A stretch of DNA of 10,077 nt, taken from Bathymodiolus brooksi thiotrophic gill symbiont. GTDB lineage: Bacteria; Pseudomonadota; Gammaproteobacteria; PS1; Pseudothioglobaceae. The position numbers and the translations under genes are program-made. The notes under the pieces are model-generated. The model was not told where the DNA came from, did not search any database, and saw only the letters and a list, made by a program, of their open reading frames with translations. Positions within the stretch are counted from its first letter, which is position 1; the number at the start of each line of letters is the position of its first letter. Where the stretch lies: contig NZ_CAHJWD020000534.1 in NCBI RefSeq assembly GCF_903642095.1, positions 1 through 10,077 on the forward strand. The letters are read 5' to 3'. Shown here piece by piece: positions 5,501 to 8,545 of the stretch.

Positions 5501-5586
5501 CAGTGATGACGCTTATTTTATTGCCGTGCCTTTATTTAATGAATTATCAATTTGTGAATTGGATAGCTAAATTTAGCAAAAAATAG
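2542..5586 (+). CDS. RND-family (AcrB-like) inner-membrane transporter, no adaptor nearby
   Basis: Complete 1014-residue resistance-nodulation-division permease, the usual size for AcrB relatives. Such pumps are proton-driven trimers that move drugs, lipids or other molecules from the periplasm or inner membrane outward. Architecture: TM1 at about 12-31, a large periplasmic loop with the family motif GYPGASPEDVE (51-61), a TM2-TM6 cluster at about 336-485, TM7 at about 517-537, a second periplasmic loop, and TM8-TM12 at about 850-1003. The TM4 proton-relay aspartates are present (VVDDSIIVAES, D401 and D402). At the TM10 position where AcrB has K940-N941, this protein has N910-D911 (VIVNDSLVMV), which suggests a different RND subgroup from AcrB/MexB. 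No periplasmic adaptor or outer-membrane channel gene lies in the window, so the substrate is unknown. It follows typA by 17 bases without an obvious ribosome binding site, which suggests one transcript. Its stop codon overlaps a palindromic repeat. Confidence 0.95.
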   Translation: MDSFFNFFVKQKKLALVFTVSIIAIGLLAFNNIQRDQFPAIDFELVTIVTGYPGASPEDVEQNITNPIEDELSSVIGIEKFSSISRQGSSVILVTLSPDVDDVSALKQDIQNAVDRIKSLPDEVVNLPEVVDMKSSLQSILKVNISSNSLSFAQLRNKIDEIADELALVDGVSEVSKEGYLDREIQIRIDTDKLYQYKLSLPQVMSAIQKRNQRYTVGSNNGIKNEKTIVVLAQFDQAQAVGDVIIKSSFDGPVVRLKDIATISDGNVEEKSIVRVNATKGFILKIRKQAHADIITTVDLIKEKLHALQAKKYPQVRIFYSSDLSKYVRNRLEIVTNNGMIGLLLVLLVLGVFLSLKTAFWVAVSLPVSLLGSVALLGMAGETINLISLAAMILVLGIVVDDSIIVAESIHHYKQIGTDKYRSAVKGFKRVIMPVITTILTTVLAFSSMFLMEGTMGKFIYVIPLVVIFALTLSFLEVTIALPAHLAGLNEKSQKKNWFNAIENWFERVLKQVLRMRYLIVIGFLALLGVSIFFAATQMRLTLFPTIGADVITAKLKMPPGSSLQHTASVSHKVEALIKDVVGVDLDSLTNNIGQSFSHVAQFNIALVPSSERKIQVKTQLQRLKARTTEIVEAEKLTFSVRRPGPPQGEDIEIQLVSSNDDQRQTAANALAEILSQIEGVDNIDRDDDPSKSRIEVVLDFEKMARLNVDFVTVNRYLKAAFSGINVTDIRYGDTDVDFRVYLGESKQSEAVISELKISNRQSRPVPLKHFSSIRHIVGEPDFNHFDGQRSVKISASINDEIASTSVVIKQVLKSFDADNLYPAVRVLSEGGAKETKKSMQSFLKAFVMAVLIIFFLLILLFDSYTQPLLVLSAIPFSVIGVIWAFFLHGEPLSFFALLGTLALVGVIVNDSLVMVTHLNYLKQKLSATTPALEWIVQGAKDRLRAVILTSLTTLAGIIPLAYGIGGTDFILKPMALSLGYGLLFGTVMTLILLPCLYLMNYQFVNWIAKFSKK

Positions 5587-5626
5587 AGACTTTTGCTAGT
5601 TACCCATATTTATGCAAAGGCCTCTT
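5584..5626. repeat. Palindromic element, copy 1 (hairpin, possible terminator or IS-end-like scar)
   Basis: GAGACTTTTGC (5586-5596) and GCAAAGGCCTC (5614-5624) form an 11-position stem with one mismatch and one G-U pair around a 17-base loop. It starts on the RND stop codon. It could act as a transcription terminator after the typA-RND unit, although the following TTAAGGTGTTTTG is a poor U-tract. The arm sequence GAGACCTTTGC also resembles terminal inverted repeats that I associate from memory with some IS5-family elements. A related copy lies at 8355-8382 beyond the next gene. Confidence 0.5.
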
Positions 5627-5686
5627 AAGGTGTTTTGTTTGGTTGACCCATAAGTCCTAATAGTAATAATTTATATTTTGAAAGAA

Positions 5687-5731
5687 ATTACAATATGATT
5701 TTTTGTAGTAAAATTTTTCAATAATTATAAA
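5687..5731 (+). promoter_or_regulatory. Candidate promoter of the exported metalloprotease gene
   Basis: Two weak possibilities lie in an extremely AT-rich stretch. One is ATTACA (5687-5692), 16 bases, TAAAAT (5709-5714), giving a leader of about 29 bases. The other is TATAAA at 5726-5731 with a poor -35 (TTGTAG, 5703-5708) at 17 bases. Either would make the gene independent of the upstream RND transcript, which agrees with the hairpin between them. Confidence 0.25.
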
Positions 5732-5749
5732 ATATATTGAAGTGCAATC

Positions 5750-8209
5750 ATGAAGCAATTAACAAGAATATTACTAGGGTTTTCATTTCTTTTATTGAGT
5801 GGCTTATTTAGCATTGCATTTGCTGATATCACAATTGATGACAACGCAACCTTAAGGTCTCTCAACAATAACCCCACTAAACTTCACAATTATTTAAACA
5901 AATACCAGCATGTGCATCTAAAAACTAGAGATGGTGCTTGGGTAGGAAGAATTATCCTTCCAAATCATGTTAATAAAGGCAAAAAAGTAACACTAAGCGT
6001 GAATTCTTTTTTTGGGGTTGTGGTGGTTAGTGGCAGCACGAGCTATTCTCTTAATAAAGGAGACACTGTCTCTTGGGTTTATACCAATGGTTCTTGGATT
6101 CACAAAAATGGCTCTTGGACTTACGAAAATGGCTCTTGGGTAGCACAGAATTGGAATAACAACTATAGATTGATTACGGATAACGATACTTTACGCTCCT
6201 TACAAAATAACGCTGCTGAATTAAAAAAATATATTAATACCTATAAAGAGGTGCATCTACAAACTAGAAATGATACTTGGATACAAAATATCAACCTTCC
6301 TGATAGCGTTAATATGGGTAAGAAAGTAACGCTAACCGTTAATTCTACATGGGGAGTGAAAGTTAACTATAACGGAATAACAACTCAATTGAATGAAGGT
6401 GATAAACAACAATGGGTTTATGCAAACAACACTTGGAATAAAGTTTTTTTTGAATTATCCTTTAATAATCTACAATCCACTATACATTGGAATCCTGATC
6501 CAAGGTTTCAGCAATATGAAGTGTTTTATGCAAACGAACCAATCTCACTTTTATCAGACACCAGTAATATATCTAGTTTGAAAGGCGGTGGTTCAACTAT
6601 AGTTCAAGATAACAAATTCGATATAAGTCATTTTGATACTGAGACTTATTATTTTTTGATTAAAGCAAATATACGCTACCAATATTATGCGCAATCTAAT
6701 GAGAAAAAAATCGTAATATATGTAAATAAATCTAATGGCATTAATGAAGAAGTTATCAGTCAACCAATAAAACCCAATTTATTACAACCTGTTGAGCATT
6801 CCCTAATTGCTGAAGTTGCTTTAAAAAGAGCGTTACTTTCTGGTTATGACTTATCTGATATTAAAGCATATGCAATTAATCAAAATAACGCTTATAATTT
6901 AAGAGTAGAAAACAAAACACCGAGAAAATTTGCAAAGATTAATGTTGTGATAGACGGAAAGGGTTATGTTATTAATGAAGAATTATCTCAATTCTCCCAT
7001 AAAGATATCTCTCTAACGGGTGTTAATTTAAAGCCTGATTCAAAAGTAAGTTTTTTACAGCCTAATCTAGCATATCAGCCAAATGTCAGTAGTTTTGGTA
7101 CTAATAATACTGATAAAACAGTATCTAGTTACTTCATTTTACAAAGCCACTTAAAAGATTTTTATTCAAAAAAATCTACAAGAGATGATTTTTATAATTA
7201 TTTTTTAAAGACTCGTTCTGAAACAAAGCAATCTTTAATTGACAAATGGACAAGAATAACTTCTACGAATATACCTAAAGAGCATAAGGTGTTTGCTTCT
7301 GATGCTGTAGGATCAGCATCTGTCAGTTGGCTTAATCTAAATTGGGTTATGACTAACTTTATAGCAAATAAATCATATACTTTGATATATGCCGCCTATT
7401 CTCACGAATATGCCCACACTATTGGGTTTGAACACGGGAGTGGATTGGCTTATGGTTGGGATGATTTCGTGGCGACATATATGAAAAATTCTTTTAAATC
7501 AAACTCTCTAACAGCAGGTGAAATTGTCTCAGAGCGTGCAGATATTTTTTGGCATCTTGATGTTAAAGGGAATAAATTGGTTGCGTATTCTCAAGAGCCA
7601 AACAGGTTCTCTCTTTCCAATATACGCTTGTTTTTGCCTAATTATGTAGATAAAATTTATATTGTTGATGATGCGATATCCTTAAGATCTATGTATAGCG
7701 TAAATCCAAGAATATTGGTTAATGCAGATGTGCTGGATAACGGTAATTCTAATAATCATTTGGCAAATTATATTGTTAATCAAGTTGTTTCTAAAGATTC
7801 GGCGGATATGGATATATTTGTAGGGATTATTTCTAAAAATTATAGTGGTGCGGCAAATAATAACTCTGGCGTATACTTCACTGTGCCAGATCAAGATAAT
7901 GTTGTAAGTCACAATGCTGGTGCTACAACAGGATGGTACAGTGAAATCGAATCTACTATTGTTGTAAAAGTTAGGAACATAGAAACAAATAATGAGTACA
8001 CCATCCCTTTAATCGGAGAACAAGGTAAATATGCAATGACAGCAGGTGTTCCTGCAGGAAACGGACAAGTTAAATTCTCTATTGACTCTAAAAAGTTAAA
8101 TTTACCTAAAGGAATTTATAAAGGGGAGTTTACTATTGAAGCGCGTGGCTGGCACGATCCATCCTATACAAAAGAGTTAAAAGTAGTCGTTAGATACATT
8201 GTTAAATAA
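5750..8209 (+). CDS. Exported metzincin-type zinc metalloprotease with StcE/TagA-like modules
   Basis: 819 residues. A clear Sec signal peptide (residues 1-25, ending SIAFA before D26) predicts export. Two copies of a beta-rich module follow at about 28-116 and 142-229, each running TLRSL-NN...VHL-TR...W...I-LP...KKVTL-VNS...W-Y-N--W. From memory they match the module in the secreted mucin-cleaving protease StcE of E. coli (NGRWVRDIYLP, VEIHTANG, FKYVNGQW). Residues 111-131 between them are three NGSW heptads. Residues about 233-326 look like a fibronectin-III-like domain (STIHWNPDPRFQQYEVFY). The catalytic motif HEYAHTIGFEH at 552-562 is a perfect HExxHxxGxxH: zinc ligands H552, H556 and H562, catalytic E553. 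The downstream YGWDD loop recalls StcE, but the conserved Met-turn is unclear; M578 is the nearest methionine. The C-terminal 150 residues look beta-rich. A secreted glycoprotein- or mucin-directed protease is inferred, not shown. The weak ribosome binding site is GAAG. The gene is noticeably more AT-rich than its neighbours. Confidence 0.85.
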   Translation: MKQLTRILLGFSFLLLSGLFSIAFADITIDDNATLRSLNNNPTKLHNYLNKYQHVHLKTRDGAWVGRIILPNHVNKGKKVTLSVNSFFGVVVVSGSTSYSLNKGDTVSWVYTNGSWIHKNGSWTYENGSWVAQNWNNNYRLITDNDTLRSLQNNAAELKKYINTYKEVHLQTRNDTWIQNINLPDSVNMGKKVTLTVNSTWGVKVNYNGITTQLNEGDKQQWVYANNTWNKVFFELSFNNLQSTIHWNPDPRFQQYEVFYANEPISLLSDTSNISSLKGGGSTIVQDNKFDISHFDTETYYFLIKANIRYQYYAQSNEKKIVIYVNKSNGINEEVISQPIKPNLLQPVEHSLIAEVALKRALLSGYDLSDIKAYAINQNNAYNLRVENKTPRKFAKINVVIDGKGYVINEELSQFSHKDISLTGVNLKPDSKVSFLQPNLAYQPNVSSFGTNNTDKTVSSYFILQSHLKDFYSKKSTRDDFYNYFLKTRSETKQSLIDKWTRITSTNIPKEHKVFASDAVGSASVSWLNLNWVMTNFIANKSYTLIYAAYSHEYAHTIGFEHGSGLAYGWDDFVATYMKNSFKSNSLTAGEIVSERADIFWHLDVKGNKLVAYSQEPNRFSLSNIRLFLPNYVDKIYIVDDAISLRSMYSVNPRILVNADVLDNGNSNNHLANYIVNQVVSKDSADMDIFVGIISKNYSGAANNNSGVYFTVPDQDNVVSHNAGATTGWYSEIESTIVVKVRNIETNNEYTIPLIGEQGKYAMTAGVPAGNGQVKFSIDSKKLNLPKGIYKGEFTIEARGWHDPSYTKELKVVVRYIVK
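6080..6142 (+). repeat. Three tandem 21-bp units inside the metalloprotease gene
   Basis: Units at 6080-6100, 6101-6121 and 6122-6142 share the core AATGG(T/C)TCTTGG. They encode YTNGSWI, HKNGSWT and YENGSWV. The repeat keeps the reading frame and extends the conserved last strand motif (V-Y-N-SW) of the first beta module into a linker before the second. Changes in copy number would lengthen or shorten the linker by seven residues without a frameshift. Confidence 0.85.
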
Positions 8210-8219
8210 AAAATTAGCT

Positions 8220-8299
8220 ATGAAATTGATGTGCTGTGCAAAAGAAATCAACAATCAACCTAGGAAGCACTTAAACTTATTGCGTTAGTGAAATTTACA
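8220..8299 (+). pseudogene. Remnant of the 3' end of an IS30-like insertion sequence
   Basis: Reading from 8220 gives a 22-codon frame containing AKEINNQPRKHLN. This resembles the C-terminal motif of IS30-family DDE transposases (INNRPRK-L followed by a TP motif). The frame then breaks with a stop at 8286-8288. The bases 8280-8299 read on the minus strand give TGTAAATTTCACTAACGCAA, which resembles an IS30-type terminal inverted repeat (E. coli IS30, from memory: TGTAGATTCA...ACGCAA). The transposase tail and the IS end are in the order expected for a right end of an element. Everything upstream is missing and replaced by the metalloprotease gene. The match is short and from memory. Confidence 0.35.
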
Positions 8300-8354
8300 C
8301 CTGCTTTGGTAGTAATTTACTTTTTCTATCAATGACAGTTAAAACGCCTTAATA

Positions 8355-8382
8355 ATCTTTGCCAATAATACAAAGGTCTCTA
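8355..8382. repeat. Palindromic element, copy 2
   Basis: ATCTTTG (8355-8361) and CAAAGGT (8371-8377) form a short hairpin with one G-U pair and a nine-base loop, continuing into CTCTA. ACAAAGGTCTCTA (8370-8382), read on the minus strand, is TAGAGACCTTTGT. It matches 11 of 13 bases of TAGAGACTTTTGC at 5584-5596 beyond the other end of the metalloprotease gene. It looks like a decayed second copy of the same element. Confidence 0.4.
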
Positions 8383-8433
8383 TTTATAAAAAATAATCAT
8401 ATTGAATAAGAGCTTAGATTTAGGGCAGTTTTG

Positions 8434-8483
8434 TTGATAAAAAATCTAGCTTTACTTATTAATAAGCTTATATTTTTTATCAA
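8434..8483. terminator. Bidirectional terminator-like hairpin between convergent genes
   Basis: TTGATAAAAAAT (8434-8445) and ATTTTTTATCAA (8472-8483) are perfect 12-base inverted repeats. After a small internal loop, AGCTT (8448-8452) pairs with AAGCT (8464-8468), leaving an 11-base loop. Each arm contains a run of six A or T, so in both directions the RNA carries a U run in the distal arm. Its position between convergent genes suits a shared terminator, but the stem is AT-rich and there is no separate U-tract after it. Confidence 0.45.
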
Positions 8484-8545
8484 AAAAATGCCACGAAGAT
8501 GAATACTTATTTAATGGGGTTATCCATATTTTCAGACTTTAATGA

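Follow-up and report, generated by a model that had tools for sequence, protein, structure and literature searches.

The window, that is, the whole 10,077-nucleotide stretch of DNA that was analysed, is contig C534 of the genome of a thiotrophic gill symbiont of Bathymodiolus brooksi, an assembly of 2.37 Mb in 548 contigs. With names taken from Pfam matches, its genes run in the order typA, an RND transporter gene, an open reading frame of 819 codons, ruvA and an Aconitase_C gene that we take to be leuD. The central frame (5750–8209, plus strand) encodes an 819-residue protein that has no cysteine. As the initial annotation had described, this single frame combines a signal peptide, two tandem modules of the StcE beta-sandwich family (PF20944), a FnIII-like segment that is weak, and a perfect HExxHxxGxxH motif, HEYAHTIGFEH (Table 1). 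Hydropathy analysis finds no stretch beyond the signal peptide that is similarly hydrophobic. The genome encodes an fn3 protein that the FnIII-like segment matches at E = 3.6e-4; model confidence in the segment is very low. An artefact or a chance motif is ruled out (0 of 20,000 shuffles). A promoter scan was uninformative, with 10 matches against a mean of 14.6 in shuffled sequence.

Table 1. Features of the protease gene and its surroundings (positions in the window)
Feature	Positions	Strand	Residues and basis
Left-hand remnant, short mobile element with inverted repeats (MITE-like; ends GAGACCTTTGCA)	5579..5625	.	
Lineage-specific insertion holding the protease gene, RND gene to ruvA	5587..8545	.	
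Signal peptide	5750..5824	+	1–25; read from sequence, hydropathy
StcE beta-sandwich module 1 (PF20944)	5831..6100	+	28–117
Linker between modules, three NGSW repeats	6086..6139	+	113–130; read from sequence
StcE beta-sandwich module 2 (PF20944)	6170..6442	+	141–231; Pfam
Probable FnIII-like domain	6461..6730	+	~238–327
Beta domain opening the core, with N-x-T-x-R-x-F	6860..7054	+	371–435; alignments, strands in both models
Zinc domain, helical in models	7112..7498	+	~455–583; six-member core alignment
Zinc-binding motif HEYAHTIGFEH	7403..7435	+	552–562; kept in 7/7 aligned members
SGLAYGWD family signature adjoining the third His	7439..7462	+	564–571
Beta-sandwich (Ig/FnIII-like)	7544..7804	+	599–685
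C-terminal module (N-Y ... GWH)	7820..8200	+	691–817; alignment of seven copies
Probable right remnant, repeats of the same MITE-rich kind	8368..8472	.	

The protease gene is absent from the corresponding place in eight of 11 congeners (L028–L035), where the distance from the aligned end of the RND gene to the end of ruvA is 18 to 420 bp. The other three fall outside this count, one stretch (L027) stopping at a contig end and two (L036 and L037) having no RND gene. The insertion is AT-rich, with a GC3 of 0.254 for the protease frame compared with 0.297–0.338 for four neighbouring genes. At its left side, positions 5579–5624 match L040 at 82.6% (E = 6.9e-7) and positions 5588–5625 match L041 at 86.8% (E = 2.4e-6). 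At its right side, positions 8382–8472 match L039:133–224 at 83.9% (E = 5.3e-21), which is close to a GAGACCTTTGCA end without containing it, and positions 8368–8389 match the element ends in L041, L043 and L044 at 90–91%, with E values of just 0.05–0.6. The end sequence itself occurs 45 times in the 2.37 Mb genome (23 forward, 22 reverse), compared with 0+0 for a reversed control, and at least four pairs of facing ends span 157–162 bp. The left remnant and the probable right remnant together imply that short mobile repeats probably flanked the protease gene when it arrived or was relocated. Phage cargo is ruled out, since no relative was found in phage records or in viral contigs, where none of 34 pattern matches was confirmed. 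The element with these ends, GAGACCTTTGCA/TGCAAAGGTCTC, is MITE-like, ~157 bp long and abundant in the genome; one copy lies at L043:1501–1657.

The initial annotation had reckoned with a symbiont, and the genus supports this. The RuvA protein of C534 is 99% identical to that of one congener (G007) and 94% to that of another (G011). DsrA scores over its cut-off in all three genomes searched (its own, G007 and G011), and among 14 controls eight match and none passes. GspD passes its family cut-off in all four genomes searched, its own included; six of 14 controls match and two pass. A type II secretin is thus present, although a secretin gene alone does not prove that the type II system is complete or in use. 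Passages of PMC7542363 describe both StcE and CpaA as exported by such systems.

The assignment of the tandem modules to the StcE type is secure. Both score over the curated Pfam cut-off (27 bits). A profile of five rows, one of which is module 2, matches CpaA (PDB 6o38) at 1.4e-19 in at least four stretches and StcE (PDB 3ujz) at 7.3e-17 in at least two, and structure comparison matches the two modules to those of StcE and CpaA, a correspondence on which the initial annotation had staked its reading. A tree of the modules had no resolution as to a recent duplication of the two. In StcE itself, profile matching places the modules at chain positions 137–214 and 561–640, and the relevant passage of PMC8249670 gives E447 as the catalytic residue. 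The StcE modules thus flank the catalytic part on each side, as the initial annotation had stated, whereas here both precede it. The tandem arrangement had been taken for an unusual domain order; CpaA, however, is described in passages of PMC7542363 as having four tandem modules, all N-terminal to its catalytic domain, so that the order is not new. The CpaA authors judge the similarity of these repeats to the StcE domain, in both sequence and structure, to be "very limited" (PMC7542363, same passages). PF20944 passes its cut-off in two of 91 related genomes, both of the same genus, and among 369 genomes drawn from the class it was found in the symbiont's own genome only. A Vibrio maritimus plasmid (L020:4659–7136) encodes an 825-residue hypothetical protein in which a single PF20944 module is the sole Pfam match at E up to 0.1.

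How close, then, is the protein to these two glycoproteases? CpaA of Acinetobacter (MEROPS M72) offers the nearer architectural parallel: it is an exported protein in which Ig-like modules, of one family with those here in sequence and fold, stand in tandem before a zinc protease domain whose zinc motif is of the extended type; the symbiont genome has a type II secretin gene. CpaA has four modules, however, compared with two, and lacks the extra beta domains and the C-terminal module seen here. Its catalytic part has no detectable sequence relation to the core of the 819-residue protein: in an hmmsearch of the PDB sequences with a core-family profile (six members), 6o38 is absent at E up to 10. 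CpaA is also accompanied by an adjacent CpaB chaperone gene, whereas the insertion has no further open reading frame of 80 residues or more within 5587–8545. Its Met-turn is conserved, according to passages of PMC7542363, whereas the core family as aligned appears to have none.

The resemblance to StcE/TagA (MEROPS M66; PDB 3ujz and 4dny) lies in the PF20944 modules and in the extended zinc motif, which StcE carries. Peptidase_M66 (PF10462) has no match in the protein at E up to 1 and none in 91 related genomes, the symbiont's own included, at E up to 0.001. A plain StcE orthologue is ruled out, the M66 domain being missing. The mucin link proposed at the outset is weaker than it appears. Mussel symbionts are for the most part intracellular, a setting in which secreted mucins would not be an obvious substrate. 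The X409 region of StcE has no match here, and phmmer with the whole protein reaches StcE only in the module region of 4dny, a search that a distant relative could escape. In StcE, mucin binding belongs to X409 (residues 797–898), not to the PF20944 modules, and catalysis is intact after X409 is removed, as passages of PMC8249670 report.

The catalytic core has relatives of its own, six clear members with the 819-residue protein included and one uncertain. The other clear members are an 833-residue protein from a JGI metagenome (P0002), an 820-residue hypothetical protein of Microbulbifer pacificus (P0003), a 712-residue protein of Oceanospirillales bacterium XeTr1 (L014:9839–11977), a Shewanella baltica protein found in four plasmid records (P0004; E = 1e-50, with 31% identity and 53% of the query covered) and a protein of a Vibrio sp. 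THAF190c plasmid (P0005; E = 2e-27, with 27% identity and 34% covered). The cores of P0003, P0004 and P0005 share 26–33% identity with that of the symbiont protein. SHExAH[TS]xGxxHxSG[LM]AYGWD is common to the six, its second half, SG[LM]AYGWD, included (6/6). The uncertain seventh, in genome G119, matches at E = 3.5e-5 over only 41 profile positions around the motif; it has SGLTYG in place of the signature, and N-x-T-x-R-x-F aligns too. The C-terminal regions of L014 and P0005 look alike by eye and unlike those of the other members.

These relatives emerged from searches of very different reach. With the whole protein as query, only its own 90%-identity cluster (P0001, representing 28 sequences) was found among 7,993 scored candidates; search words limited to residues 440–680 brought P0002 and P0003 among 679. 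A profile search with alignment A3 again gave the own cluster alone, among 7,995, and missed P0002 and P0003; it was swamped and thus says nothing about rarity. Species genomes were scanned twice: the protein as query gave nine pattern matches, none of which was confirmed, and an alignment gave 16, of which L014 was the sole one confirmed. A class-wide search found the core in three of 369 genomes (its own, G119 and G397), and a search around G119 reached two genomes. G397 was dropped as a family member, no HExxHxxGxxH being seen in its frame by eye.

No Pfam family scores over its cut-off for the core, the 819-residue protein matches no NCBIfam family, and the PDB sequences hold no relative of the core (one row, E = 0.44, with the motif outside the match). 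Judged by such comparisons, the core represents a small family that the searched libraries do not name, and the separate family that the initial annotation had proposed stands to that extent. We conclude that the protein is real and unusual. A Pfam scan found PF20944 in none of the five other clear members (the G119 frame was outside the scan), implying either a gain of the modules by the symbiont lineage or their loss from every other one.

Is this core a metzincin, as had been proposed? Metzincins have a conserved or invariant Met-turn methionine after the zinc motif, as stated in the abstract of PMC1266349, and a catalytic domain comprising a five-stranded sheet and three helices, as in the corresponding part of PMC3406945. 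The symbiont protein has the metzincin-type motif, HExxHxxGxxH/D. The seven members, aligned at the sequence level over 64 residues past the third histidine, have no column of conserved Met-turn methionine: methionines lie at offsets 16; 20; 19 and 39; 4; none; 4 and 22; and 12, 33 and 60, and it is the S. baltica member that has none over the whole span. Two low-confidence models, built on four sequences and with mean pLDDT of 51 and 58, have nothing but helices between residue 455 and the zinc helix, which no sheet precedes; in one of them the pLDDT of blocks in the zinc domain is ~56–85, except at residues ~507–529. No zinc-protease fold was among the 50 matches listed in either of two fold searches with the models. 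The metzincin label has the zinc motif in its favour and, as far as the alignment indicates, is not supported at the Met-turn.

Two readings of these data may be compared. The core could be a diverged true metzincin, distantly related to M66 or M72, in which the Met-turn has been shortened to the [LM]-A-Y-G that comes after the third histidine. The retention of the full motif in all seven members would fit, as would the presence of modules that belong to two metzincins, StcE and CpaA. The triplet after the third histidine is M-A-Y in two of the seven and L-A-Y or L-T-Y in five, recalling the M-x-Y of astacins and serralysins. Weak matches of single members point the same way, in Pfam to Astacin (0.054), Reprolysin_5 (0.06) and Matrixin (0.16), and in NCBIfam, where the core set gives three single-member matches only (E = 0.015–0.074), to an M6 protease model (0.074). 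The methionine would, however, stand just four residues past the third histidine and is leucine in five of seven; one member is free of methionine altogether within the span; the low-confidence models place no sheet before the zinc helix; and comparison of the core profile with reprolysin-like proteins of the same genus (G011) aligns only 46 columns around the motif, with a probability of 1.6% (E = 0.031). We regard this reading as rather unlikely. The other reading, which we hold only tentatively and at somewhat short of an even chance, is that the core constitutes a separate family of zinc peptidases, one that has the extended HExxHxxGxxH motif but lacks both a Met-turn and the metzincin sheet. 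Such a family would be carried between gammaproteobacteria by plasmids and insertions, and in the mussel symbiont it would have been redirected by acquiring the glycoprotease modules of StcE/CpaA. Should the core truly lack both the Met-turn and the sheet, the extended motif could no longer be taken as the mark of a metzincin without exception.

Both kinds of accessory module recur on other proteases. The C-terminal module is present at the ends of P0003 and P0004, whereas the C-terminal region of P0005 differs by eye. Two copies also end each of two long frames in the congeners G005/G008, L006 (1–1917) and L007 (1458–3377); the former is a Peptidase_S8 protein (1e-16) and the latter is alike by eye, so that zinc protease and subtilase have this second accessory module in common. 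It has no Pfam entry, and its best PDB match is not better than 0.75. The congener G011 encodes three proteins (L005, L009 and L011) that resemble the symbiont protein in genus, in having PF20944 and in being metalloprotease-like, and differ in carrying a single module, at the C-terminus, on an M12-like protease part with a [SP]IMY Met-turn (by eye). L005 matches Reprolysin_5 at E = 2.5e-4, under the curated cut-off, and has the zinc motif and Met-turn by eye; for L011 a search at E up to 1 yields no protease family, and its PF20944 module is over the cut-off in one scan and under it in another. In L009 and L011 the HExGH segment is replaced by HGMGH and HVMGH, with loss of the catalytic glutamate, and both look catalytically dead. 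Since the G011 module sits on reprolysin-like proteins, exported proteases of more than one kind bear PF20944 in the genus. With two unrelated-looking protease types carrying it in one symbiont genus, the StcE/CpaA-type module does not seem to be bound to any single protease family, and the sharing of modules gives the impression of protease parts assembled in varying combinations.

The explanation that we favour, with moderate confidence in the whole of it, horizontal gain included, is that the gene encodes a horizontally gained, probably type II-exported zinc endopeptidase of an unnamed family, which would act in the manner of CpaA and StcE without evident membership of M72 or M66. The gene would have been acquired by the thiotrophic mussel-symbiont lineage. 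The predicted Sec signal peptide would direct the protein to the periplasm, from which it would probably leave by the type II system to which the secretin gene points. H552, H556 and H562, conserved in all seven aligned members, would bind zinc, and E553 would activate water. The two modules and the flanking beta domains may hold or orient a glycosylated substrate by the active site, a role already suggested for CpaA's Ig-like domains; the likely targets, speculatively, would be O-glycosylated host or surface proteins during colonisation. Against this explanation, glycan binding by PF20944 is a proposal, carried over by analogy. The zinc domain, too, gave no zinc-protease fold among the matches listed and no protease family above a cut-off, and no CpaB-like frame of 80 residues or more adjoins the gene within the insertion. 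Mucin is a target that we infer, and a simple mucin story is opposed by the location of mucin binding in X409, the likeness to StcE appearing, from sequence, to be confined to the PF20944 region.

Why should such a protease be aimed at glycosylated host proteins at all? It might serve nutrition or general turnover, or act against other microbes, with no special link of this kind; relatives without PF20944 in Microbulbifer and on Shewanella and Vibrio plasmids would fit this role, as would a C-terminal module held in common with a subtilase. Such a role leaves the gain of PF20944 in the symbiont lineage unexplained, however, and the module is rare nearby, although present on the V. maritimus plasmid; we consider this role rather unlikely. 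That the gene is non-functional cargo in decay we consider improbable: the insertion lies beside mobile-repeat remnants and the catalytic glutamate is lost in two of the three module-bearing G011 proteins, but the frame here is intact, the family residues are kept and the cluster covers 28 sequences. On the favoured explanation, that of an exported, CpaA/StcE-like endopeptidase, the protein is a concrete candidate for a secreted protease at the boundary between mussel and symbiont. A 2015 survey of toxin-related genes in Bathymodiolus symbionts (PMC4612132) has no mention in its main text of peptidase, mucin, mucus or type II secretion, and uses the word protease three times, never for such a protein. 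No title on the 819-residue protein was among those listed in literature searches on StcE and symbionts and on proteases, toxins and mucin in Bathymodiolus symbionts, most subscription journals lying outside their scope.

Finally, a possible remnant of PF20944 is seen in another genus of the same family, where a 67-residue open frame (L008; G052:C1:658428–658541) matches residues 137–174 of the symbiont protein at 55%.
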